Program-made: the position numbers and the translations under genes
The notes under the pieces: generated by a model
Databases searched by the model: none
The model's input: only the letters and a program-made list of their open reading frames with translations
What the model was told of the DNA's origin: nothing
Assembly: GCA_033344915.1 (NCBI GenBank)
Contig: JAWPML010000001.1
Coordinates: 3,986,263 to 4,050,262, forward strand
DNA: 64,000 nucleotides
Source of the DNA: Acidimicrobiales bacterium
Lineage (GTDB): Bacteria > Actinomycetota > Acidimicrobiia > Acidimicrobiales > Aldehydirespiratoraceae
Reading direction: 5' to 3'
In this document: piece by piece, positions 39,629-52,549 of the stretch
Layout of the letters: each line of letters begins with the position of its first letter
How positions within the stretch are numbered: the stretch's first letter is position 1

Positions 39629-39672
39629 CGTTCACCGAGAGTTCAGGTCGTGCCGGTGGGGCGTTCACCCGG
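39629..39672 (+). promoter_or_regulatory. PHO box array upstream of pstS1
   Basis: GTTCACC (39630), GTTCAGG (39641) and GTTCACC (39663) are spaced 11 and 22 bases apart, exactly in 11-bp phase. This matches the direct-repeat PHO box bound by actinobacterial PhoP. It lies 29-71 bases upstream of the -10 box TACGTT. Confidence 0.75.
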
Positions 39673-39700
39673 GCGGCTCCTCGATGCAAGACGGGGTTCG

Positions 39701-39706
39701 TACGTT
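39701..39706 (+). promoter_or_regulatory. -10 box of pstS1
   Basis: TACGTT ends 7 bases before the ATG, so the pstS1 mRNA is probably leaderless. There is no good -35 box, as expected for an activator-dependent promoter. Confidence 0.5.
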
Positions 39707-39713
39707 GCCGGCC

Positions 39714-40826
39714 ATGCAAACACCAACCAAGCGAAGCTCCCTGCTCGCCATCACCCTGCTCCTTCTCGTCAGCCTGTTCGCAGCGGCGTGCGGAGACGAT
39801 GGCGACACCACGAACACCGAGGAGAACAACCAGTCCCCGGACGTCCCCGAGCCGACCGACGACGTCGGGTCGGCCTCAGAGATCGAGGGTCAGTTCCTCG
39901 TGTCCGGATCCTCGACCGTCTATCCGATCGTCCTGAAACAGGCGGAGGAGTTCTCGGCCGCCAACGGTGCGGTGGCGATCTCCGTCGAGGGGCCGGGTTC
40001 CGGTGACGGCGCCCAGAAGTTCTGCGCGGGGGAGGTCCCCATCGCGAACGCCTCCCGCCTCTTCAAGGACGAGGAGATCGAGATCTGTGAGGCCGCCGGC
40101 ATCGAGTTCATCGAGATCCGGCGAGGGATCGACGGCATCTCCGTCATCACCTCCTCGTCGAACGACGCGATCGAGTGTCTGTCGTTCAACGACCTCTACG
40201 CCCTGCTGTCCGACGAGGCCTTCGGCTTCGAGTCGTGGTCGGACGCCAATGCCGTGACGGCCGACTGGTCCGGCACGGAGTTCCCCGACGAAGCGCTCGA
40301 GGTCTTTGCCCCCGGCCAGGAATCCGGTACCTACGACTCCTTCGGTGAGATCGTCATCGAGTCCGTGTACAAGGGCAAGACCGGGCTGGACGTCGAGGCC
40401 CGTGAATTCGTCGAGTCGATTCGCAACGACTACGCCGCGAGCGGCAACGACAACGTCATCATCGAGGGCATCGCCTCGAGCCCGTACAGCCTCGGCTGGG
40501 TCGGCTACGCGTTCGCCCAGGAGGCAGCGGATGCCGGCACCGTGAGCCTCGTCTCGGTGAGCGTCGAGGACGGCGGCGAGTGCGTCACGCCGACGCCGGA
40601 GACGATCGCCGATGCGTCGTTCCCGATCGCCCGCTACCTGTACACCTACGTCAACGCCGAGGCCGCGGCGAACGATCCGGCGGTCGCCGCCTTCGTCGAC
40701 TACATGCTGAGCGACGCCGGCCTCGAAGCCGTCACCGCCGCCGGCTATGTGGACCTGTCGGACGCGGACCAGACCCTGGCGGCGGCGGTCTGGGAGAACC
40801 GGACCACCGGTCGCAGCTGGAACTGA
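39714..40826 (+). CDS. pstS: phosphate-binding lipoprotein PstS (copy 1)
   Basis: This 370-residue protein is the phosphate-binding part of an ABC transporter. It has a lipoprotein signal with lipobox FAAA-Cys26 and an acidic linker. The binding domain begins GQFLVSGSSTVYPIVLKQAEEF, the phosphate loop of PstS, and continues with EGPGSGDGAQKFCAGEVPIANASR. FAPGQESGTYDSFGEIV is the second binding motif. It stands alone here, with a PHO box, and is a close paralogue of the pstS in the pstSCAB operon. Confidence 0.94.
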   Translation: MQTPTKRSSLLAITLLLLVSLFAAACGDDGDTTNTEENNQSPDVPEPTDDVGSASEIEGQFLVSGSSTVYPIVLKQAEEFSAANGAVAISVEGPGSGDGAQKFCAGEVPIANASRLFKDEEIEICEAAGIEFIEIRRGIDGISVITSSSNDAIECLSFNDLYALLSDEAFGFESWSDANAVTADWSGTEFPDEALEVFAPGQESGTYDSFGEIVIESVYKGKTGLDVEAREFVESIRNDYAASGNDNVIIEGIASSPYSLGWVGYAFAQEAADAGTVSLVSVSVEDGGECVTPTPETIADASFPIARYLYTYVNAEAAANDPAVAAFVDYMLSDAGLEAVTAAGYVDLSDADQTLAAAVWENRTTGRSWN

Positions 40827-40837
40827 GCCGGCGACGT

Positions 40838-41497
40838 TCAGTCGTCGAGGTCGTCGTCGTGGACCTCGTGGTGCAGTGGCTCCGTTGCGGAGATCACGAT
40901 GCCCGCGAGGTTCGCGACGATGCGCTTCCAGTAGCGATACAGGATCGCCCGGGGCACGACCTCCGACCCCGGCTGATCCGAGTGCATGCACTCCCGGATC
41001 TGGGTCTCGAGTGAGAAGCGCAACGCATCGGCTCGTTCCCGGAACGCGGCGGCCGTCGTGGCGTCCGGTTCCGAGACGATGTCGGCGGTCTCGCCCATCA
41101 TGGCGGAGATCTCCCGTCGGGTCGCCGTGAGTTCGGCCGAATCGGCGGTGCCGCTCAGGTCGACGCCCTCCTGGGCGAGGTCGAGGATGTTCTTGGCCTG
41201 GTCGCCGATCCGTTCGATCTTCTTGATCAGCAGGGTGTAGGCGAGGACCGCGCCGATGTCGTCGGTGCCCTGGACGGAGACGTGCACGACCAGCTCCCGT
41301 CGTAGCTCGTGCTCGGTCGCGTTGATCCGATCGTCGGTGCTGTACACGTCGTCGGCGACGGCCTCGTGGCTGGCGCCGCTGAGCAGTGCCGTCGAGGCCA
41401 TGTCGAAGCTGTGGCGGGCGTCGGCGAGCATCGACACGGTGTGCGCGGTGATTGCCTCGAAACCACCCTCGGACCGGCGGAAGAACGACATGACCAT
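40838..41497 (-). CDS. PhoU-like domain protein, partner of the Na/Pi symporter
   Basis: This 219-residue helical protein has the PhoU-like fold. The EVHDD-type acidic end and the motif LLIKKIERIGDQAKNILDL, with its ExxxD metal-binding pattern, are typical of PhoU domains. It follows the symporter gene by 13 bases on the same strand and likely regulates it, as PhoU-like domains often follow or are fused to Na/Pi symporters. The start at 41497 is preferred for its AAAGG site; 41491 is an alternative. Confidence 0.85.
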   Translation of the reverse strand: MVMSFFRRSEGGFEAITAHTVSMLADARHSFDMASTALLSGASHEAVADDVYSTDDRINATEHELRRELVVHVSVQGTDDIGAVLAYTLLIKKIERIGDQAKNILDLAQEGVDLSGTADSAELTATRREISAMMGETADIVSEPDATTAAAFRERADALRFSLETQIRECMHSDQPGSEVVPRAILYRYWKRIVANLAGIVISATEPLHHEVHDDDLDD

Positions 41498-41510
41498 GAT
41501 GCGGGGCCTT

Positions 41511-42650
41511 TCAGCGGAACGTCGCGACGCCGACGAGCGGCACGATGAAGAAGACGGTCACCACATAGGTGACCGCCAGAGCTTGGCGGGTGACGGCGAG
41601 TTCGGCCAGCCCTTGGGCGAGCCGGATCGGGATCTCGCGCACCCGCTCGATCGGGTAGAGGAGCAGGATCCCCGTCACGTTGAAGATCGTGTGGACGAGC
41701 CCGACGGTCAGCGCCTCCGGGCGGGACGCGGCGAGCGCGGCCAGCAGCGCCGTGATCGTCGTTCCGACGTTGGCGCCGAGCGTGACGGGGAAGATGTTGT
41801 GCAGGCTCACCACGCCGGCCGCGGCGAGCGGAATCATGATCGACGTCGTGATGCTGGAGGACTGCACCGACACCGTGATGATGAGGCCGAGGAGCATGGC
41901 GACGGTGCCGCCGCCACGGCCGAGCACGGCATTGAGCGACCGCTCGACGCGGTCGGCGACGAGCTGGCGCATGTTCTTCGTGATGAACGTGAGCGCGAGG
42001 AGTACGACGACGAGACCGGTGATGACCATGACGGTGCCGAGGATGTTCTCCTCGAACCCGACGTCGGCGTAGACGTCCTGGATCCAGCCGACCGGCTCCT
42101 TCACCCACCGCTTGATCGGGCTCTTCCAGTCCGATCCGGCCGCCCCGACGAGCTGCTCGCTGATCGCCTCCGCGGCGGAGCTCAGCCACCCGGTGACCAA
42201 CTCGACCGGGAGGAGGATGGCGACGGCGATCACGTTGAAGAAGTCGTGCACCGTGGCGGCCGCGAACGCTCGCTTGAACTCCTCCGACTGACGCATCGAC
42301 CCGAGCGACACGAGCGTGTTGGTCACGGTCGTGCCGATGTTGGCACCCATGATCATCGGGACGGCGGCGTCCACGCCGAGCGTGCCGGCACCGACGAGGC
42401 CGACGATCACACTGGTACTCGCGGAGGACGACTGCACGAGCACCGTGCCGAGGATCCCGACGAACAGACCGGCGAGCGGATTGCTGACGCCCTCGAAGAG
42501 ACTCTTCTGGGTGTCCTCGCCCATGACCTTGACGCCGGACTCGAGCAGCGAGACGCCGACGAGGAATCCGTAGATGAGCAGGAACACGAGCACGGAGCGC
42601 GCCCACGTCGGCATGCCGCGATCGTCCGGCCGCGCCGTCGTGCTCGTCAT
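41511..42650 (-). CDS. Na+/phosphate cotransporter family protein
   Basis: This 379-residue membrane protein has about nine hydrophobic segments. The duplicated QSSS motifs (TVLVQSSSASTSVIVGLVG and SVQSSSITTSIMIPLA) plus GANIGTTVTN and GANVGTTITA are the hallmarks of the NptA/SLC34 family. It should bring in phosphate with Na+. A TACGTT -10 box (42666-42661, minus strand) lies 10 bases before its ATG, and the shared upstream region holds PHO boxes. Confidence 0.93.
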   Translation of the reverse strand: MTSTTARPDDRGMPTWARSVLVFLLIYGFLVGVSLLESGVKVMGEDTQKSLFEGVSNPLAGLFVGILGTVLVQSSSASTSVIVGLVGAGTLGVDAAVPMIMGANIGTTVTNTLVSLGSMRQSEEFKRAFAAATVHDFFNVIAVAILLPVELVTGWLSSAAEAISEQLVGAAGSDWKSPIKRWVKEPVGWIQDVYADVGFEENILGTVMVITGLVVVLLALTFITKNMRQLVADRVERSLNAVLGRGGGTVAMLLGLIITVSVQSSSITTSIMIPLAAAGVVSLHNIFPVTLGANVGTTITALLAALAASRPEALTVGLVHTIFNVTGILLLYPIERVREIPIRLAQGLAELAVTRQALAVTYVVTVFFIVPLVGVATFR

Positions 42651-42694: not shown

Positions 42695-42733
42695 GTTCAC
42701 CGGTTGTTCACCTGGAGCCAGCCGGCGTTCATC
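42695..42733 (+). promoter_or_regulatory. PHO box array upstream of pstS2
   Basis: GTTCACC (42695), GTTCACC (42706) and GTTCATC (42727) lie in the divergent region between the Na/Pi symporter and pstS2. The first two are 11 bases apart. They are likely to serve pstS2 and may also serve the symporter. Confidence 0.7.
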
Positions 42734-42778: not shown

Positions 42779-43915
42779 GTGACCGAGCTCCTGCCCCCCA
42801 CGCGCGCCGATCGAGTCCGGGCCGTCGTCCTGGTGCTCACCTTGCTGGCGGTCTTCGGTGGGGTCGCGGCGATCGTCGACGCACTCGGTGACGAACCGAC
42901 CGTGATCGTCCAGTCCCGCTCCACCACCGACGACGACAACGTCGGTCCGACCACACCGTCGGGCCCACTGGAGGGCTCGTTCCTCGTGTCCGGTTCGTCG
43001 ACGGTGTACCCCATCGTGCTGAAGCAGGCCGAGGCGTTCGGTGAGGACAACGGCGGCGTCGCCATCGCGGTCGAGGGCCCGGGTTCGGGTGACGGCGCCC
43101 GCAAGTTCTGCGCCGGCGAGGTGCCGATCGCGAACGCCTCGCGTCTCTACAAGGACGAGGAGATCGAGATCTGCGAGGCCAACGGCATCGAGTTCATCGA
43201 ACTCCGGCGCGGCATCGACGGCATCACCGTCATCACGTCGGCGGAGAACGACGAGATCGACTGCGTCTCGTTCAACGATCTCTATGCGCTGCTCTCGGAC
43301 GAGGCCTTCGGCTTCGACTCGTGGGCGGACGCGAACGCGATCACGGCGAACTGGAACGGCACGGTGTTCCCCGATGTGCCGCTCCAGGTCTTCGCCCCCG
43401 GCCAGGAGTCCGGCACCTACGACTCGTTCGCCGAGATCGTCATCGAGTCGGTCTTCGCCGGCAAGACCGGACTCGACACCGAGTCTCGTGAGTTCGTCGA
43501 GTCGATCCGCAACGACTACACGGCCAGCACCAACGACACCGTCATCCTCCAGGGCATCGAGTCGAGCCGGTACAGCCTGGGCTGGGTCGGCTACGCCTTC
43601 GCCCAGGAGGCGTCCGACGGGGGAACGGCCCGCATGCTCCCCGTCTCCAAGGGCGACGGCGGGGCCTGCGTGGACCCGAGCCCGGAAACCATCGCCGATG
43701 CGTCGTTCCCGATCGCCCGCTTCCTCTACACCTATGTGAACGCCGAGGCCGCCGCCACCGACCCGGCCGTGGCCGCGTTCGTCGACTACATGTTGAGCGA
43801 CGAGGGTCTCGAGGCGGTATCCGCGGTCGGCTATGTGGACCTGTCGCCGGTCGATCAGACCCGCACACAGACGATCTGGACGTCACGGCTCACGGGGACC
43901 GGCCAGTGGGAGTGA
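42779..43915 (+). CDS. pstS: phosphate-binding protein PstS (copy 2), membrane-anchored
   Basis: This 378-residue protein has the same binding domain as copy 1 (GSFLVSGSSTVYPIVLKQAE and FAPGQESGTYDSFAEIV), with very high similarity over the whole domain. The N terminus differs: there is no lipobox cysteine but a hydrophobic segment (about residues 14-33) that looks like a signal anchor. It starts with GTG at 42779 and heads the pst operon, overlapping pstC. Confidence 0.92.
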   Translation: MTELLPPTRADRVRAVVLVLTLLAVFGGVAAIVDALGDEPTVIVQSRSTTDDDNVGPTTPSGPLEGSFLVSGSSTVYPIVLKQAEAFGEDNGGVAIAVEGPGSGDGARKFCAGEVPIANASRLYKDEEIEICEANGIEFIELRRGIDGITVITSAENDEIDCVSFNDLYALLSDEAFGFDSWADANAITANWNGTVFPDVPLQVFAPGQESGTYDSFAEIVIESVFAGKTGLDTESREFVESIRNDYTASTNDTVILQGIESSRYSLGWVGYAFAQEASDGGTARMLPVSKGDGGACVDPSPETIADASFPIARFLYTYVNAEAAATDPAVAAFVDYMLSDEGLEAVSAVGYVDLSPVDQTRTQTIWTSRLTGTGQWE

Positions 43916-45303
43916 GTGTGCCGACGCTCCAGGCGCGGGCGTGGATCGGTGCCGTGGAGGTGTTGCTCTTCCTGGTCCTGGCGCTCGCCTTCGCTCTGGC
44001 CGAGTACTTCCTTTCGGGACTCTTCACCGACTTCGGGCCCTCGAACTTCTGGCTGGCGTTCGTCGTCCTCGCCGCGTGGAATGCATGGCACTTCGCGGGA
44101 TCGCAGACGGCGCTCGGCGCGGTTGTCGGCCACACGGTCCTGACGCTCGACGGCCGACCGGCATCGGTGCTGACCATCGCCGTCCGCCAACTGATCCGCT
44201 TCGGCGTGCTCTACGGCATCCCCGTGCTCGCCATCGACTTCGACCTCCGGGTCGGGCTGCTGATCTGGGCGGTCGTCGGCGTGGTGGCCCGGTACACGCC
44301 GGGGCATCGGGCGCCGTGGGACCTCGCGGCGGGAACCATCCTGGCGACCGACTTCGGGTCGCCGAAGGGACTCGCCTCGCTCCCGCTCGTGCAGCAGCCG
44401 TCGGACCTCCGACTCGACCCCCGCCGCGCCAGGCTCGACCGGCGGGCCTCCCGGCTGATGTTCCTCGCCGGGCTCACCTCGGTCGTCATCAGTGCGTTGA
44501 TCGTCTGGAACATCTTCACGGAGGCATGGACCTTCGTCGCCGACGACGAGTTCAGCTGGGGGATCCTGACCGATCGCGGGTGGTTCCCCCGCGACGGCGA
44601 GTTCGACCTCTCGACGCTCTTCGTCGGCACGCTCTGGATCACCGGCATCGCGATGCTCGTGGCCGGCCCGGTGGGACTCGGCGTCGCGTTCTACCTGTCC
44701 GAATACGCGTCACCGCGGGTGCGCGGCGTGGTCAAGCCGCTCATCGAGACGCTCGCGAGCGTGCCGTCGGTCGTGCTCGGACTCTTCGCGATCAGTTTCA
44801 TCGCCCCCGAGATACTCCAGCGGATCTTCGACGACATCGGGATCTTCTCGCTGCTCGCGGCAGGCATCGGCGTCGGCATCCTCACCGTCCCGATCGTCGC
44901 GTCGATCTCCGAGGACGCGATGCGCGCCGTGCCGATGGAACTGCGCGAAGCCAGCTACGGGCTGGGTGGGCGCAAGGCCACCACGGCGCTGCGCGTGGTG
45001 TTTCCCGCCGCGCTCTCGGGCATCTCGGCCGCTGCGATCGTCGGCATCTCACGCGCGATCGGCGAGACGATGGTCGTCTTCATCGCGGCCGGGGGCAACG
45101 GCGTGTTCAACACCGACCCCGTCGACCAGGGGCAGACCATCACGGCGGCGATGGCGTCGCTCGGCGCCGGCACGGACCAGGTGGCCGGATCGGGCCTGGC
45201 GTTCCAGAGCCTGTACTTCCTCGGTGCGCTCCTCTTCATCATGACGATGCTCCTCAACGTCATCTCCGACGTGATCGTCCGACGATTCCGGCAGGCCTAC
45301 TGA
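43912..45303 (+). CDS. pstC: RDD domain-PstC phosphate permease fusion
   Basis: This 463-residue membrane protein has two parts. Residues 1 to about 150 look like an RDD-family domain, with membrane segments at the start, RPASVLTIAVRQLIRF and the ending RAPWDLAAGTILATD (compare the RxLHDxLAGTxVV of RDD proteins). Residues from about 170 form PstC, with the inner-membrane permease signature EDAMRAVPMELREASYGLGG and the ending VISDVIVRRFRQAY. Normal PstC lacks the RDD part. The GTG at 43912 overlaps the pstS2 stop by 4 bases; GTGs at 43906 and 43918 are alternatives. Confidence 0.9.
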   Translation: MSVPTLQARAWIGAVEVLLFLVLALAFALAEYFLSGLFTDFGPSNFWLAFVVLAAWNAWHFAGSQTALGAVVGHTVLTLDGRPASVLTIAVRQLIRFGVLYGIPVLAIDFDLRVGLLIWAVVGVVARYTPGHRAPWDLAAGTILATDFGSPKGLASLPLVQQPSDLRLDPRRARLDRRASRLMFLAGLTSVVISALIVWNIFTEAWTFVADDEFSWGILTDRGWFPRDGEFDLSTLFVGTLWITGIAMLVAGPVGLGVAFYLSEYASPRVRGVVKPLIETLASVPSVVLGLFAISFIAPEILQRIFDDIGIFSLLAAGIGVGILTVPIVASISEDAMRAVPMELREASYGLGGRKATTALRVVFPAALSGISAAAIVGISRAIGETMVVFIAAGGNGVFNTDPVDQGQTITAAMASLGAGTDQVAGSGLAFQSLYFLGALLFIMTMLLNVISDVIVRRFRQAY

Positions 45304-46223
45304 TGGCCGGTCCAACGACCACGGTGGACCTCGGCGACCTGCGGGCCCGGCGCGGTGCCGACGTGCGCGGCCAGATCTTCCTGGCGCTGCTCGTCGCGTC
45401 CGTCGTCCTCGCGTTCGCGATGGTCGGTGCCGTCTTCTACGACGTCACCGTCGACGCGTGGGACATCATCTCGAACCGGCTCGGGGACTTCCTCCGCATG
45501 CCGTCGTCGTCCGATCCGACGAAGGCCGGCGTCGCCCAGGGCATCCGGGGCAGCCTCCTCATCGCCCTCATCGTGGTGGCCACGTTTCCCATCGGTATCG
45601 CCGGGGCGATCTATCTCGAAGAGTACGCCGACGACACCTGGAGCACCCGCCTCATCCAGGTGACCGTGCGGAACCTCGCCGGGGTGCCGTCGATCGTCTA
45701 CGGCCTGCTCGGGCTGGCCGTCTTCGTGCAGTCCCTGCGCGGGCTGACCGGCGGGTCCTCGGTGATCGCGGCCGGATTGACCCTCGCGGTGCTCGTGCTT
45801 CCCGTGGTGGTCATCACGTCGGCCGAAGCGGTCCGCGCCGTCCCCCCGGCCCTGCGCGAGGGGGCCTACGGCCTCGGCGCCACCCAGTGGGAGGTCATCC
45901 GGACACAAGTCGTGCCCGCGGCGTTGCCAGGCATCCTCACCGGCACGGTGCTCGCCGTGGCGCGTGCGCTCGGTGAAGCGGCCCCGCTGCTCGTCATCGG
46001 CGCGGCCGGGTTCTACACGACCGGCAACCTCGACTTCCTCGAGCAGACCCAGGGCGCGTTCACCGCCCTCCCCATGAACATCGCCAACTTCGCCCGCCTC
46101 CCTGCGGAGACGTGGCGGGGCCACGCCGCGGCTGCGAGTGTGGTCCTGTTGGTGCTCGTGTTCATCGTCAACCTCGTGGCGATCACCGCCCGAGCCCGTA
46201 TCTCCAAGAAACTCGGACGCTGA
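45303..46223 (+). CDS. pstA: phosphate ABC transporter permease PstA
   Basis: PstA (306 residues) has about six membrane segments. The EAA loop is seen as [21 protein letters not shown] and is followed by [28 protein letters not shown], typical of PstA. It overlaps pstC and pstB by one base each, so the operon is tightly coupled. Confidence 0.96.
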
Positions 46224-47080
46224 TGCAGATGACTGAACCAACCACCCGGATCGAGACGAACGCGACCGTCGGCGCGAGCGAGTCCGTGCCGCCGGACCCG
46301 GCGAGCGAGGTCTTCGCCGTGCGCGATCTCAACGTCTACTACGCCGATCTGCGCGCCGTCGCCGACGTTGACCTCGACGTGCACGAGCGTCAGATCACGG
46401 CGTTCATCGGGCCGTCGGGCTGCGGCAAGTCGACCGTGCTGCGCTGCTTCAACCGGATGAACGACCTGATCGACATCGCCCGGGTCGAGGGGTCGGTTCG
46501 CTATCGCGGCATCGATCTCTACGACGCGGCGGTCGATCCGGTCGCGGTGCGGCGCCGCATCGGCATGGTGTTCCAGAAGCCGAACCCGTTCCCGAAGTCG
46601 ATCTACGACAATGTCGCCTACGGCCCCCGGGTGGCCGGACAGAAGGGGAACCTGGACGACGTCGTCGAGCAGTCGCTGCGCGATGCCGGCCTCTGGGACG
46701 AGGTGAAGGATCGCCTCGACGGCTCCGCCCTCGGCATGTCGGGCGGGCAGCAGCAGCGCCTCTGCATCGCCCGTGCGATCGCCGTCAACCCCGACGTGTT
46801 GCTCATGGACGAACCGTGCTCGGCGCTCGACCCGATCGCGACCGGACGGATCGAGGAGCTCATGAAGGAGATCCAGAACGACTACACGATCGTGATCGTG
46901 ACCCACAACATGCAGCAGGCGGCGCGGGTCAGCGACCGCACCGCCTTCTTCACCGCCGAGTTGGACGAGTCGACCGGCCAGCGGCGCGGCAGACTGGTGG
47001 AGCTCGACGACACCGGCACCATCTTCTCGAATCCCTCCGACGAGCGGACCGAGGCCTACGTGACCGGCCGATTCGGTTGA
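46223..47080 (+). CDS. pstB: phosphate ABC transporter ATPase PstB
   Basis: PstB (285 residues) drives phosphate import. Walker A is GPSGCGKST, the signature is [18 protein letters not shown], and Walker B is [34 protein letters not shown] is a PstB-specific motif. The first 35 residues are a variable acidic tail. It lies between pstA and the PhoU-kinase gene (16-base gap). Confidence 0.97.
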
Positions 47081-47096: not shown

Positions 47097-48539
47097 GTGA
47101 CCGAGATCCGCACCCAGCTCGACGATCGTCTGCGCGTCATCGAGACCAAGCTCCTGGAGATGGCCGAGCTCGTCTCGGTGCGGGTCGGCGACGTCACGTC
47201 CGCGATCCTCGAGGGGGATGTCGAGGCGGCCGACCAGCTGGTCCGGGCCGATGACGACATCGACCTGCTGTCGCTCCAGGTCGAGGAGGGCTGTATCGAC
47301 ACGCTCGTGCGCGAGCAGCCCGTCGCCCGCGACCTGCGGTTCGTGGTCGCGGCGATGCACATCAACACCGACATGGAGCGATCCGGTGACCTGGTCACCA
47401 ACATCGCGAAGGCCGTTGGCCGGCTCCAGGGCGCGCACCCCGATGATCACGTCCGCGATCTGGTCGCCCGGATGTCCGCCCAGGCCCAGGTGCTGATGCG
47501 ACGCGCCGCGGAGTCGTTCCGCAGTCGCGACGCGGAGCTGGCGGCGTCGATCGACGAGCTCGACGACGTGCTCGACGACCTGCACTATCGCTACATCCAG
47601 CACGTCATCAGCGACGCCCGCCGCGGTGACCTCGATCCCCAGCAGTCGCTCCAGCTCGCGCTGGTCGGCCGCTTCTACGAGCGCATCGGCGATCACGCGG
47701 AGAACATCGGCGAGCGGGTCCGCTACATCATCGACGGATGGCTGCCGGAGGCGCAGGCGGCCGAGCGGGCCCGGGCCCGGATCGCGAGTGACGAGTTCCG
47801 ACCGACCCGGGGTCTGGCCGTGATCGACTCGGTGGCCGAGGAGCGCCGGATCGACGCCATCCGCCGCGACTTCGTCGCCAACGTGTCGCACGAGCTCAAG
47901 ACGCCGGTGGGCGCCATCTCGCTGCTCGCAGAGACCCTCGCGTCGGAGCAGGACGAGACCGATCGCGATCGCCTCACGGACATGCTGCAACGCGAGGCGA
48001 AGCGCGTCGGCGACATCATCGACGACCTCCTCGAACTCACGCGGCTCGAGGAGACCGAGACGGCGACGAAGAAGATCGACGTGGACGACATCGTGCGCCG
48101 GGCGGTCGACAAGGCCCGCGGTCTCGCCGACGCCCACCGGGTGGAGATCGCCGTGGTCGGCGTGCCGAGCGACCTCGTGGTGCGGGGCGAGCGCCGTCAG
48201 ATCGTCCGCGCCCTCACGAATCTCCTCGACAACGCCGTGCGCTACTCCGATCCCGACTCGCAGATCTCGCTCACGGTCGAGGCGGTCGAGGGCGCCGTGA
48301 CCATCACGGTGCGCGACAGCGGCGTCGGGATCCCGCGGACCGAACTCGAGCGGGTGTTCGAACGCTTCTACCGCGTCGACCGGGCCCGCAGTCGCGAGAC
48401 CGGCGGCACGGGCCTCGGCCTGGCCATCGTGCGCCATGTCGCCCAGAACCACGGGGGCAGGGTGCTCGTCGAGTCCAAGCCCGGCGAGGGGTCGAGCTTC
48501 ACCCTCCAGCTACCGACCGTCGGTGCGGCCTCGCAATGA
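47097..48539 (+). CDS. PhoU-histidine kinase fusion (phosphate sensor)
   Basis: This 480-residue protein is a fusion. Residues 1 to about 215 form a complete PhoU: two repeats with VARDLRFVVAAMHINTDMERSGD and YERIGDHAENIGER, whose acidic residues bind metal in PhoU. Residues from about 245 form a histidine kinase, with the H-box FVANVSHELKTP (His265), the N-box LTNLLDNAVRY, then DSGVGIP and GGTGLGLAIV. No membrane segment or PAS domain was seen, so it should be cytoplasmic and reach the transporter through its PhoU half. The start is GTG at 47097 behind GAGAGGAGA. The response regulator overlaps by 4 bases. By position it replaces both PhoU and PhoR. Confidence 0.95.
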   Translation: MTEIRTQLDDRLRVIETKLLEMAELVSVRVGDVTSAILEGDVEAADQLVRADDDIDLLSLQVEEGCIDTLVREQPVARDLRFVVAAMHINTDMERSGDLVTNIAKAVGRLQGAHPDDHVRDLVARMSAQAQVLMRRAAESFRSRDAELAASIDELDDVLDDLHYRYIQHVISDARRGDLDPQQSLQLALVGRFYERIGDHAENIGERVRYIIDGWLPEAQAAERARARIASDEFRPTRGLAVIDSVAEERRIDAIRRDFVANVSHELKTPVGAISLLAETLASEQDETDRDRLTDMLQREAKRVGDIIDDLLELTRLEETETATKKIDVDDIVRRAVDKARGLADAHRVEIAVVGVPSDLVVRGERRQIVRALTNLLDNAVRYSDPDSQISLTVEAVEGAVTITVRDSGVGIPRTELERVFERFYRVDRARSRETGGTGLGLAIVRHVAQNHGGRVLVESKPGEGSSFTLQLPTVGAASQ

Positions 48540-49231
48540 CCGCGAATGTCAGCGTGCTCGTCGTCGACGACGAGCCGGCCTTTCGCGAGGGGCTCCGCCA
48601 GGCGCTGAAGCAGGAGGGCTTCATCGTCCACCTCGCCGCCGACGGCGAGGAGGCGCTGGAGGTCTGGCGTGCGTACAAGCCGGACGTCGTTCTGCTGGAC
48701 GTGATGCTCCCGCGGATGTCGGGGATCGACGTCTGTCGCGCGATCCGTGCCGTCGACGAGACACCGGTGATCATGGTGTCGGCCCGCAACGAGGAGATCG
48801 ACGCGGTCGTCGCCCTCGAGGTCGGCGCCGACGACTATGTCGCCAAGCCCTATCGGGTACGCGAGCTGGTCGCTCGGATGCGCACCGTGCTGCGGCGAGC
48901 CTCCGTGGCGGCACCCGCCAGCGAAGAGGACACCGTGCTGGAGGCGGCCGGCGTCCGGCTCGACCGGGAGCGGCACGAGGTCACCCGTGACGGCGAACTC
49001 GTCCAGCTGCCGCTCAAGGAGTTCGACCTGCTCGCGCTCCTCATGGAGAACCAGGGCCTCGTGGTGACCCGCCAGACGCTCATCGACCGGGTCTGGGGCT
49101 ACGACTATGTCGGCGACACCAAGACCCTCGACGTCCACATCAAACGCCTCCGAGCCAAGATCGAACCCGACCCCGAACACCCCGCCGTGATCGTCACCAT
49201 CCGCGGCCTCGGCTACAAACTCGCCGGCTAG
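48536..49231 (+). CDS. OmpR/PhoB-family response regulator (PhoP/RegX3-like)
   Basis: This 231-residue regulator has a receiver domain with acidic Asp11-Asp12, phospho-acceptor Asp55 in VLLDVMLP and the conserved Lys in DDYVAKPY. The C-terminal winged helix ends TLDVHIKRLRAKIEP and IRGLGYKL, typical of PhoB/RegX3. It is coupled to the PhoU-kinase gene. It probably binds the GTTCACC PHO boxes at both pstS promoters. Confidence 0.95.
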   Translation: MTANVSVLVVDDEPAFREGLRQALKQEGFIVHLAADGEEALEVWRAYKPDVVLLDVMLPRMSGIDVCRAIRAVDETPVIMVSARNEEIDAVVALEVGADDYVAKPYRVRELVARMRTVLRRASVAAPASEEDTVLEAAGVRLDRERHEVTRDGELVQLPLKEFDLLALLMENQGLVVTRQTLIDRVWGYDYVGDTKTLDVHIKRLRAKIEPDPEHPAVIVTIRGLGYKLAG

Positions 49232-49597: not shown

Positions 49598-52549
49598 GTG
49601 CCCGACTCGCCCCTCCTCGACGGCCTCAATCCCGCCCAGTTCGACGCCGTCATCCACAAGGGCGGGCCGCTTCTCGTCGTCGCCGGTGCGGGCTCGGGCA
49701 AGACCCGCGTTCTGACCCATCGCATCGCGCACCTCATGGAAGAGGGGATGTCACCGTTCGAGATCCTCGCCATCACCTTCACCAACAAGGCCGCCGGCGA
49801 GATGAAGGAGCGGGTCGGCGGGCTCGTCGGACCGGTGGCGCAGAAGATGTGGGTGTCCACCTTCCACTCGGCCTGCGTGCGGATCCTTCGCCGCGACGTC
49901 GAACGTCTCGGCTTCCCGTCGCGCTTCTCGATCTACGACCAGGCCGATGCGGTGCGCCTCACCGGCTACGTGATCCGCGATCTCAACCTCGATCCGAAGC
50001 GGTTCCCGCCCCGCTCGGTCCACGGCGCCATCTCGGCGGCGAAGAACGACAACATCGGCGCCGAGCAGTATGCGGAGGACGTCCAGCAGATCTTCGAGCG
50101 CAAGATCGCCGACGTCTACTTCGAGTACCAGAAGCGGCTGCTCACGGCCGGCGCGATGGATTTCGACGACCTGCTGCAACGCACCGTCGAGCTCTTCCGG
50201 GCCCACCCGGACGTGCTCGACGGCTGGCGACGCCGCTTCGGCCACGTCCTCGTCGACGAGTACCAGGACACCAACCCCGTCCAGAACGATCTCGTGCTGA
50301 TGCTCGCCGAGGAGCACCGCCAGGTCACCGTCGTGGGCGACAGCGACCAGTGCCTCCCCCCTGGCACCCTCGTGTCCACCCCGGCGGGCGACCGGGCGAT
50401 CGAGACGTTGGTCGAGGGTGACCTCGTCCTCGGGACCGGCGGCGGAGCCGACCTCGTCGCTCGACCGATCTCCCACGTGCACCGGTCGATCCACGCCGGT
50501 CGGCGTTACCGGATCCATGCGGGCGAGCACGTGATCGAGGGCACACCGCACCACATCATCCCGGCCCGACTCGGTGGCTACACGCCTGGCGCCTGGCTCC
50601 TCTGGGACTCGGTTCTCGGCTACCGCGTGGGCGAGTCCGTGCCGGTCGGCGCGAAGGCGTGGTCGATACCGCGGGAGGTCGTGGACGTCCCCGCGGGGAC
50701 GTTGTTCGAGACGCTCGATCTCCATCCCGACTTCCCGCACGTCCGTCATGATTCGGCGGTCGAGCTCGCGATGTTCGAGGTCGACGGACGCCACCGCGTC
50801 GGTGAGATGGCCTTCACCTCCTACCGCGAAGCGACTTCGGCCGCCCGGCTCGTCGCCGGGGATAGCGGTCTCGAGATCGCTCGGCGGGCGGTGATCGATG
50901 GCGACGTTCATCCGTTCCAACCGCTGTCACACATCCGGCCCGGTATGACCGTCAAGGTCGTCGGTCCGGCTGGCTTGGTCGACGCGGCTGTGGATCGGGT
51001 CGAGATCGTCGAGACCGACGGGCCGGTCTACGACCTCGAAGTGGACGACATCCACACCTACGTGGCCGGCGGCGTGCTCGTGCACAACAGCGTCTATGGC
51101 TTTCGCGGCGCCGACATCCGCAACATCCTCGAGTTCGAGGACGCCTTCCCCGACGCGACGGTCGTCGTTCTCGAGCAGAACTATCGTTCGACCCAGTCGA
51201 TCCTCGATGCGGCGAACGCGGTCATCGCGAAGAACGTGGGCCGCAAGCCGAAGGACCTGTGGACCGACCAGGGCCCCGGCGACAAGATCGTGCGCTACCA
51301 CGCGGACGACGAATCCGACGAGGCCCAGTACGTCGCCAACGAGATCGCCCGGCTCCACGACCAGGAGCACATGCGCTACGACGAGATGGCGGTCTTCTAC
51401 CGGACCAACAGCCAGTCCCGCGTGCTCGAGGAGTTCCTGCTCCGGGTCGGGATCCCCTACAAGGTCGTCGGCGGCACCCGCTTCTACGACCGCCGCGAGA
51501 TCAAGGATGCGATCGCCTACCTGCGAGCGATCGTGAACCCCACCGACGAGGTGTCGGTCAAGCGGGTGATCAACACCCCCAAGCGCGGCGTCGGCGACTC
51601 GTCGATCGGCAAGCTCGACGCGTGGGCCACCCGCACCGGCGAGTCGTTCGACCAGGCGGTGGTGCGCTTCGACGAGGCCGGCGTGTCCGGCCGCGCCGCC
51701 ACCGGCATCGAGAAGTTCCTCGTGCTGACCACCGAGATCCGCAAGCTCGATGCGAGTCCGGCGACCATCATCGAGGAGGCGCTCGATCGCTCCGGCTATC
51801 TCGAGGAACTCCAGGCCGAACGCTCGGTCGAGGCCGAAGGAAGGCTCGAGAACCTGTCGGAGCTGGTCGGCATGGCCCGCGAGTACGAGACGGTCGACGA
51901 GTTCCTCGAGCAGATCTCGCTGGTCAGCGACACCGATGATCTCGACGAAGCGGAGTCCACCGTCACCCTGATGACCCTCCACTCGGCGAAGGGGCTCGAG
52001 TACCCGGTCGTGTTCATCATCGGGATGGAGGACGGCGTGTTCCCCCACATCCGCGCCCTCGGCGAGCCCCACGAGCTCGAGGAAGAACGCCGCCTCGCCT
52101 ACGTCGGCATCACCCGGGCGATGCAGAGGCTGCACCTGACGAGCGCGTGGAGCCGCATGCTCCACGGCACCACGCAGTACAACCCGCCGAGCCGGTTCCT
52201 CGACGAGATCCCGGCCGAGTTGGTCGAGGAGGTCGGTGGTGCCCGCATGCTGCGCAGTCGCAAGGAGCGCAGCTCCTACGGAGGCGGACACGGCGGCGAC
52301 CGTCAGCGCGTCGGGGCGAGCCGTGAACACATCGTGGAGCAGGCGATCTCCGCGGGGGCCGGGCCCACCCCGTCGGGGGCCGACACGATGGGGCTGCGCA
52401 TCGGCGACGACGTGCGCCACTCCCAGTGGGGCGAGGGCGTCATCATCGACATCGAGGGCAGCGGCGACAAGGCCGAGGCGAGCGTGCACTTCCCGTCGGT
52501 CGGGGAGAAGCGGCTCCTGCTCAGCTGGGCGCCCCTCGAGAAGATCTGA
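49598..52549 (+). CDS. pcrA: ATP-dependent DNA helicase PcrA/UvrD with intein
   Basis: This superfamily 1A helicase (983 residues before splicing, 737 after) unwinds DNA 3'-5' in repair and replication restart. Motif I is AGAGSGKTRVLTHRIA, motif Ia TFTNKAAGEMKERV, motif II VLVDEYQDTN, motif IV EQNYRSTQSILDAAN, motif V LMTLHSAKGLEYPVVFI and motif VI EEERRLAYVGITRA. Motif III is split: VVGDSDQ, then a 246-residue intein, then SVYGFRGAD. The C-terminal 65 residues hold a Tudor-like HSQWGEGVII segment typical of PcrA. The start is GTG at 49598, apparently leaderless. Confidence 0.96.
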   Translation: MPDSPLLDGLNPAQFDAVIHKGGPLLVVAGAGSGKTRVLTHRIAHLMEEGMSPFEILAITFTNKAAGEMKERVGGLVGPVAQKMWVSTFHSACVRILRRDVERLGFPSRFSIYDQADAVRLTGYVIRDLNLDPKRFPPRSVHGAISAAKNDNIGAEQYAEDVQQIFERKIADVYFEYQKRLLTAGAMDFDDLLQRTVELFRAHPDVLDGWRRRFGHVLVDEYQDTNPVQNDLVLMLAEEHRQVTVVGDSDQCLPPGTLVSTPAGDRAIETLVEGDLVLGTGGGADLVARPISHVHRSIHAGRRYRIHAGEHVIEGTPHHIIPARLGGYTPGAWLLWDSVLGYRVGESVPVGAKAWSIPREVVDVPAGTLFETLDLHPDFPHVRHDSAVELAMFEVDGRHRVGEMAFTSYREATSAARLVAGDSGLEIARRAVIDGDVHPFQPLSHIRPGMTVKVVGPAGLVDAAVDRVEIVETDGPVYDLEVDDIHTYVAGGVLVHNSVYGFRGADIRNILEFEDAFPDATVVVLEQNYRSTQSILDAANAVIAKNVGRKPKDLWTDQGPGDKIVRYHADDESDEAQYVANEIARLHDQEHMRYDEMAVFYRTNSQSRVLEEFLLRVGIPYKVVGGTRFYDRREIKDAIAYLRAIVNPTDEVSVKRVINTPKRGVGDSSIGKLDAWATRTGESFDQAVVRFDEAGVSGRAATGIEKFLVLTTEIRKLDASPATIIEEALDRSGYLEELQAERSVEAEGRLENLSELVGMAREYETVDEFLEQISLVSDTDDLDEAESTVTLMTLHSAKGLEYPVVFIIGMEDGVFPHIRALGEPHELEEERRLAYVGITRAMQRLHLTSAWSRMLHGTTQYNPPSRFLDEIPAELVEEVGGARMLRSRKERSSYGGGHGGDRQRVGASREHIVEQAISAGAGPTPSGADTMGLRIGDDVRHSQWGEGVIIDIEGSGDKAEASVHFPSVGEKRLLLSWAPLEKI
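50351..51088 (+). other. mini-intein in PcrA motif III
   Basis: The intein covers residues 252-497 (246 residues). Block A is CLPPGTLVSTPAGDRAIETL with Cys1. Block B has the TPxH motif in EGTPHHIIPARL. The C-terminal blocks are VYDLEVDDIHTYVAGGVLVHN, ending His-Asn, followed by Ser+1. All splicing residues are present, so protein splicing is expected. No LAGLIDADG endonuclease motif was seen. The insertion splits the helicase motif GDSDQ-SVYGFRGAD. Confidence 0.93.

Follow-up and report, generated by a model that had tools for sequence, protein, structure and literature searches.

PhoU is usually a separate protein that mediates between the phosphate transporter and the sensor kinase, and a locus in which it forms one chain with a histidine kinase (HK) raises the question of what such a protein senses: the state of the Pst phosphate transporter, or phosphate itself. 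The locus lies in a stretch of 64,000 nucleotides, hereafter the window, from an Acidimicrobiales bacterium of the family Aldehydirespiratoraceae (GenBank assembly GCA_033344915.1, contig JAWPML010000001.1, positions 3,986,263 to 4,050,262 of the forward strand). A preliminary description, made from the sequence alone, had proposed that the PhoU half senses the Pst complex and controls the kinase directly. For PhoU itself the matter is disputed, one account holding that it relays the state of Pst (PMC5775613), the other that it senses phosphate (PMC12301784).

Our comparison of related genomes suggests that the fusion by itself can sense cytoplasmic phosphate, because it persists in relatives that seemingly have no transporter. 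It also suggests that, where Pst is present, contact with it through a PxAxDLR loop of the PhoU half is an additional input, since this loop is conserved together with Pst and eroded in all three lineages without it.

A full PhoU and a soluble kinase in one open frame

The fusion gene (47097–48539, + strand, GTG start; Pfam and NCBIfam matches, alignment) encodes 480 amino acids (aa) and, as first described, a full PhoU followed by a HisKA-HATPase kinase with the phospho-acceptor His265. The PhoU part (aa 7–214, 47115–47738, +; delimited by TIGR02135 and alignment) scores 165.6 bits against TIGR02135 phoU_full (cut-off 130.25) over model positions 2–209 of 212, is matched by Pfam PhoU in two stretches, and has both EXXXD motifs, ERSGD in half 1 and ERIGD in half 2; the same model falls just below its cut-off in two other fusion genomes, G093 (127.3 bits) and G444 (121.8 bits). 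The loop REQPVARDLR (aa 72–81, 47310–47339, +), which contains PxAxDLR, is a candidate Pst contact on the strength of the conservation analysis given below. A linker (aa 223–255, 47763–47861, +), for which the Pfam scan gave no match, leads to HisKA (aa 256–319, 47862–48053, +; PF00512, 63.3 bits), where the stretch NVSHELKTP contains His265 (47889–47891), a residue shared by all 18 fusions of one alignment (A1) and all 26 of another (A3), and then to HATPase_c (aa 365–474, 48189–48518, +; PF02518, 111.9 bits). Among the NCBIfam models the closest to the kinase half is that of PnpS-type kinases (NF046044, 258 bits, under its cut-off of 400), matched only over positions 149–390 of 390 and differing from the fusion in having no PhoU part; phoR_proteo gave 245.3 bits, under its cut-off of 334.2.

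The absence of a membrane segment and of a PAS domain was borne out as well. The highest 19-residue Kyte-Doolittle mean of the window's fusion is 1.08, so that it has no membrane segment; in the other 17 fusions scanned the maximum does not exceed 1.59, except for locus L160 with 1.91 at aa 389, inside the ATPase domain, and no PAS family was among the Pfam matches of any of the 18. An AlphaFold model (mean predicted local distance difference test, pLDDT, 75.4) gave good PhoU helices and a low-confidence linker, and of the 50 Foldseek matches shown, all carry descriptions of kinases or regulators and none that of a PhoU.

The usual separate state of PhoU does not hold here, as PhoU and kinase recur in one open frame in 28 distinct genomes. 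This excludes a frameshift or missed stop codon at the PhoU/kinase junction, which had been named as a danger to the whole description; an assembly artefact is ruled out by the same 28 loci. The ratio of non-synonymous to synonymous substitutions (dN/dS, Nei–Gojobori method, NG86) of the PhoU half is 0.03–0.25 in the 11 pairs, out of 12, that had a computable dS, these ratios being rough because most dS values are about 1 or above.

The fusion as the only full-length PhoU, and its spread

A separate phoU and phoR elsewhere, the other danger named, did not emerge from the window's genome, a single contig of 4.48 Mb that is 96% complete: no other full-length PhoU was found in it, and its other PhoU-domain matches are a divergent protein beside a sodium/phosphate (Na/Pi) symporter, here PhoU2, and a PhoU-TrkA_C protein at 2.35 Mb. 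A second match to the query P0001 at E ≤ 1e-40 was not found among the 27 of 34 first-look candidates scored. The fusion is the only full-length PhoU in all 21 fusion genomes checked (18/18 and 3/3).

The survey of PhoU-HisKA proteins across genomes that had been proposed covered the window's phylum and plasmid records, with thresholds of 1e-80 and 1e-82, at which fusions of low similarity or with an intervening domain would escape. The scan of species genomes had 128 candidates, of which the best 80 were kept; the resulting 79 loci include 12 full-length fusions and a further one that is interrupted by the end of its contig. In the window's family 17 of 51 genomes have a full-length fusion and one more a truncated one; the order sample gave 15 of 397 genomes, from four families, the class sample 6 of 395, two of them new (G444 and G546), and the phylum sample 1 of 396, the window's own. 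These samples overlap; 28 distinct fusion genomes were put together, with contigs assigned to genomes by their length and match coordinates, and kinship places all 28 in the window's class. Among plasmid records, the 5000 with the best scores include no match that spans 80% of the query. Even inside one genus the fusion is not fixed, because G086 and G087, of the window's own genus, carry an unfused kinase, in G087 within a full pstSCAB-phoU-HK-RR operon (RR, response regulator). A search of the literature, restricted to open-licence PMC papers, found no description of a PhoU-kinase fusion.

Fusions in genomes apparently without Pst

Most of the fusion genomes have Pst genes: of 18, PstB was over its cut-off in 14 and PstC was present in 13. 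The other five are of special interest for the question asked. Neither PstC nor PstB was found in G079 (locus L021), G085 (L028), G089 (L160) and G093 (L162), and G092 (L161) gave no PstC match at E ≤ 1e-12 and only an orphan PstB; all five have retained the fusion and its regulator. Therefore, if the drafts are right, Pst sensing is not the sole input there. The proposal of the preliminary description is thus divided: the covalent link, the soluble kinase, the coupling to a regulator and the place in a pst operon stand, whereas Pst sensing as a general mechanism does not fit these five genomes, four of which are without PstB too. The orphan PstB of G092 (L222, 1742–2593, −) is over the TIGR00972 cut-off and lies tail to tail with PhoU2; it is either a relic or serves some other function.

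On the tree of the fusions the absence of Pst amounts to three changes, a number that stays the same if the count is limited to strongly supported branches, and we read these as losses. The PhoU half seems to be still under selection in the Pst-less species, because its dN/dS is 0.07 for the pair L161/L162 and 0.09 for L160/L161.

In each of the five Pst-less loci the fusion is directly divergent from a Na/Pi symporter, with PhoU2 seen in four of them (the contig of L021 ends inside the symporter gene), while in several other fusion loci, the window included, pstSCAB stands between symporter and fusion. This arrangement could mean that, in species without Pst, the symporter and PhoU2 next door supply the input of the fusion, and not free phosphate. 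We regard this as improbable, since for several Pst-linked fusions, such as L023, L024, L026 and L163, the stretch read contains no symporter.

Erosion of the PxAxDLR loop

To compare the PhoU halves we used the 95 PhoU columns conserved at ≥95% in 20 Pst-linked fusions, with the fusions L214, L226 and L227 and, among the genomes with unfused genes of the same order (sisters), L109 and L116 left out of the loop reference; of these, L214, L227, L109 and L116 keep the loop and L226 does not. One best-scoring PhoU was taken per locus, leaving out lower-scoring second PhoU hits in L099, L103, L105, L106, L114 and L116. Conserved columns are changed at 5 positions in L021, 8 in L028 and 17 in common in L160–L162. 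Positions 69–79, with 7 conserved columns, took 3, 4 and 5 of these changes, respectively (hypergeometric p 0.002, 0.0007 and 0.002), and, when all 11-residue segments were scanned, the observed cluster was reached in none of 5000 permutations, which take the conserved columns as equally changeable. A77 is changed in all three lineages (p 0.08 taken alone). The cluster coincides with the PxAxDLR loop, which in the AlphaFold model links helix 2 to helix 3.

Of the 23 Pst-linked fusions 22 retain PxAxDLR, and so do all 25 unfused sisters, three of them reading DMR in place of DLR; 24 of these sisters have PstB in the stretch. The loop is lost in 5/5 Pst-less fusions, to be counted as three lineages and not as five independent cases. 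The PDB PhoU sequences 1t72 and 4q25 carry it as QPEAGDLR and QPAASDLR; the other two PhoU-domain proteins of the window's genome have no such loop. No stated role for it was found in the literature searched.

The second half of PhoU behaves differently from the loop. In its motif RxxERxGDH, the residues R192, E195, R196, G198, D199 and H200 are invariant in all 28 fusions (A1 and A3 together), so that the Pst-less ones, too, keep the helix 6 motif proposed to bind phosphate. In the first half, the EXXXD motif is broken in the Pst-less L160, L161 and L162 (ERSGD to GRSAD or ERSAA), with that of half 2 intact. The loss in half 1 would agree with a fused PhoU half that is mainly a structural or dimerisation aid to a kinase not responsive to phosphate. 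This seems very improbable to us, given that the fusion is the only full-length PhoU of its genome, that the second-half motif does not vary, and that a PHO box and a Pho-type neighbourhood accompany it.

Relative-rate comparisons point to the PhoU half, and not the kinase half, as the one that changes faster in the Pst-less lineages, clearly so for L160 and L161. For these two the PhoU half was faster in all four comparisons (39:16, 42:14, 33:15 and 41:12). For L021 and L028 the outcome depends on the comparison chosen: L021 against L019 gave 24:5 with L157 as outgroup but 16:9 with the window as outgroup, L021 against L157 20:13, L028 against the window 19:9 or 19:5, and L028 against L018 16:10. 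L162 was left out. The kinase half was about even, 22:13 at most, and the control pair L019:L157 gave 8:8 for PhoU and 18:11 for the kinase.

The same loop and the same gene order can be read in favour of a model along the lines of the preliminary description, in which Pst is the sensor and its conformation, read by the PhoU half via PstB, acts directly on the kinase. PstB is directly upstream of the fusion in 23 of the 28 loci and the loop goes with Pst in the numbers given above; in E. coli, PhoU binds both PstB and PhoR (PMC4423584), and whether transport-dead pstB mutants signal sufficiency or starvation follows their predicted conformation (PMC5775613). This reading stays alive because the E. 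coli work favours the conformation of Pst as the signal. We nevertheless hold it to be rather unlikely for the fusion, as the protein, its regulator and mostly the PHO box are kept where Pst genes are missing, on a tree that needs three changes, and dN/dS of the PhoU half is low in the Pst-less pairs.

Origin of the fusion

The sister genomes have pstSCAB-phoU-HK-RR, the same gene order as the fusion loci. Their kinases carry HisKA and HATPase_c in 25 of 25 cases and PAS_4 in 14 of 25, other PAS families having 2 to 5 members each, and in 27 of 30 the hydropathy near the N-terminus peaks at 2.0 or more (the exceptions being L101, L104 and L170), with starts for this count assigned by rule. The ten residues before the kinase helix of the fusions, LAVIDSVAEE in the window (aa 240–249), resemble a segment of the sisters, for example IALIHDVTEV, that we take, from the PAS fold, to be the last PAS strand. 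The resemblance had a shuffle p below 0.02 in 17 of 18 fusions (0.06 in L163), with scores of −5.1 to 8.5, far under the sisters' own 17.5 to 26.2. Alignment and shuffle test together make it likely that the linker keeps a remnant of this strand.

In the fusion, phoU thus seems to have been united with the core of the neighbouring PhoR/SenX3-like HK, whose transmembrane (TM) segment and PAS domain were lost. Simple read-through does not account for it, and a deletion was involved, because the 18 fusions scanned are without PAS and N-terminal TM peak. In two genomes with unfused genes, G034 and G057 (L098 and L113), only one stop codon separates phoU from an HK gene that is in register with it; little is needed to join such genes, and this may be the kind of arrangement from which a fusion starts.

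In the kinase tree (58 rows) and in the PhoU tree (53 rows), 26 of the 28 fusions form one clade, with support of 98 in each by the Shimodaira–Hasegawa-like approximate likelihood ratio test. L214 and L227 fall outside it in both trees; a single clade of all fusions was not rejected by the approximately unbiased test (p-AU 0.398).

The operon, its neighbours and a PHO-box-like repeat

The order pstSCAB-fusion-regulator, as given in the preliminary description, was confirmed in the window. The second copy of pstS (42779–43915, +; TIGR02136 183.2 bits, under the cut-off of 206.6) is followed by pstC (43906–45303, +; TIGR02138 220.9 bits, over cut-off), by pstA (45303–46223, +), permease-like, with a secondary TIGR02138 match of 149 bits and an ATG at 45303 that overlaps the pstC stop by one base, and by pstB (46220–47080, +; TIGR00972 384.1 bits, over cut-off), which ends 16 bp before the fusion. 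For pstS, GTG 42779 is the likely start, from comparison with L018 and L019 and because the listed TTG 42704 falls inside the PHO-box-like repeat described below. The regulator gene (48536–49231, +) overlaps the 3' end of the fusion by 4 bp (ATGA) and encodes an OmpR-type protein with REC (PF00072; Asp55 by position) and the winged-helix output domain Trans_reg_C (PF00486); it is under the PhoB cut-off (TIGR02154, 217.8 of 296.2 bits), the best model being MtrA (253.7 of 300). A relative of it is directly downstream of the fusion in 28/28 loci.

The repeat, GTTCACCGGTTGTTCACC (42695–42712, +), is an 11-bp direct repeat between the Na/Pi symporter and pstS, the only exact site in window and genome, with an additional GTTCATC close by at 42727–42733; we take GTTCACC repeats to be the actinobacterial PHO box. 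With the pattern GTTCAYC-N4-GTTCAYC, searched on the fusion strand anywhere upstream in the stretch and with at most one mismatch, a site precedes the fusion in 22 of 28 loci, including 4 of the 5 Pst-less ones. With at most two mismatches, the window has 3 matches against 0.35 expected, a number reached in 1 of 100 shuffles; one of the two-mismatch repeats (39630–39647, +) is just upstream of the first pstS copy. The genome has one exact and five one-mismatch sites, against none for the reversed pattern. The one-mismatch sites lie near 322218, 621446, 1336487, 1873959 and 1995473. In L025 and L027 the order is PstB-fusion-RR with the PHO box before pstB, and the pst operon seems to be split in both, because the PstC match is on another contig.

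Upstream of the operon are the first copy of a PstS-family phosphate-binding protein (39684–40826, +; TIGR02136 189.5 bits, under the cut-off of 206.6; PBP_like_2), PhoU2 (40838–41497, −; PF01895 49.7 bits, under the TIGR02135 cut-off) and, divergent from the operon, the NptA-like symporter (41511–42650, −; PF02690 134.5 bits; NF037997 115.2 bits, cut-off 50). The pair formed by symporter and PhoU2 (40838–42650) likewise puts a PhoU domain beside a phosphate transporter; it differs from the fusion in having no kinase, and PhoU2 has no PxAxD(L/M)R. Downstream, a UvrD/PcrA-type helicase of 983 aa (49598–52549, +) has a 246-residue interruption (aa 252–497) in its N-terminal helicase domain, which follows GDSDQ, begins CLPPGTLV and ends before SVYGFRGAD; a weak Hint match of 25.4 bits, under cut-off, suggests an intein.

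A probable soluble phosphate sensor-kinase

Two of the closest known systems invite comparison. E. coli PhoR-PhoB with PhoU and PstSCAB has the same components and operon logic as the fusion locus; it differs in that PhoR is membrane-bound with a PAS domain and PhoU is separate, binding PstB and the PAS domain of PhoR (PMC4423584). For the complete PhoR-PhoU-Pst complex, attempts at isolation had been unsuccessful by 2015 (PMC4423584). In Salmonella, PhoU is reported to contact both the PAS and the kinase domains, PAS alone not binding (PMC9239213). Mycobacterial SenX3-RegX3 with PhoU1/PhoU2 is, like the fusion locus, an actinobacterial phosphate two-component system in which PhoU controls the kinase, and Pst is reported to have no direct part in it (PMC12301784). 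In M. smegmatis a soluble SenX3 without its membrane segment still senses phosphate, purified PhoU1 and phosphate shift SenX3 to phosphatase without Pst, and a pstB mutant keeps some phosphate response, PhoU overproduction partly restoring regulation (PMC12301784). There PhoU is separate and PAS essential; in the fusion, PhoU is part of the kinase chain and occupies the position of TM and PAS.

On these grounds we consider that the fusion is, on balance, probably a soluble cytoplasmic phosphate sensor-kinase/phosphatase for which Pst contact is an optional second input. This is favoured because the fusion supplies every element of the mycobacterial model but PAS, with PhoU permanently beside the kinase core and the phosphate motif invariant. 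The mycobacterial data of 2025 agree with a soluble sensor and the E. coli data of 2018 favour Pst as the sensor. After phoU had joined the kinase core of its neighbour, with loss of the membrane anchor and of PAS, a domain that a separate PhoU relies on, the PhoU half would read cytoplasmic phosphate through RxxERxGDH of its last helix. With plentiful phosphate it would hold the kinase in phosphatase mode; with falling phosphate the kinase would phosphorylate the adjacent regulator, which, we infer, would bind the PHO-box-like repeat between symporter and pstS and raise uptake. In species with Pst, a contact between the PxAxDLR loop and the transporter is a probable addition, and would be dispensable. 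The sequences themselves establish the fusion and its domain content, its conservation, its status as the single full-length PhoU, the gene order, the absence of Pst genes from some drafts and the eroded loop; phosphate binding, the switching of the kinase, the Pst contact and the binding of the PHO box are inferences drawn from them.

Several points weigh against a sensor of this kind. The Pst-less genomes are drafts of 86–98% completeness; in the four without any PstB, scoring for it covered 85 of 91–118 first-look candidates and PstS was not searched, and G092 still carries its orphan PstB. Where Pst is present the coupling is tight, as the position of PstB shows. L226, in which about 460 bp without a recognised gene separate pstB from the start of the fusion, has lost the loop despite the adjacent pst, which weakens the association of loop and transporter. 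The AlphaFold model (predicted template modelling score, pTM, 0.48) gives no relative placement of the PhoU and kinase halves. As to the literature, that phosphate binds at RXXERXXDR/H of helix 6 has the status of a proposal in PMC12301784; in the same work loss of PAS derepressed the regulon, while the fusion has no PAS, and the pstB mutant was derepressed, with nearly no regulation unless PhoU was overproduced. Finally, a transport-dead E. coli pstB mutant that signals sufficiency was taken to mean that the conformation of Pst is the signal (PMC5775613).

A stronger form can be put forward tentatively, as a possibility that falls short of probable: that one soluble chain in which PhoU has replaced TM and PAS suffices as a cytoplasmic receptor-kinase for phosphate, with Pst as a removable accessory, and that PxAxDLR is the docking site for Pst, revealed by its erosion in three Pst-losing lineages. 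The eroded loop offers point mutants for the contact between PhoU and PstB. As the presumed sensor and the kinase are one soluble chain, the disputed question could be asked with one purified protein and its regulator, and the related genomes with and without Pst are natural controls. If the reading is true, evolution would already have run the decisive experiment on phosphate sensing in these bacteria.

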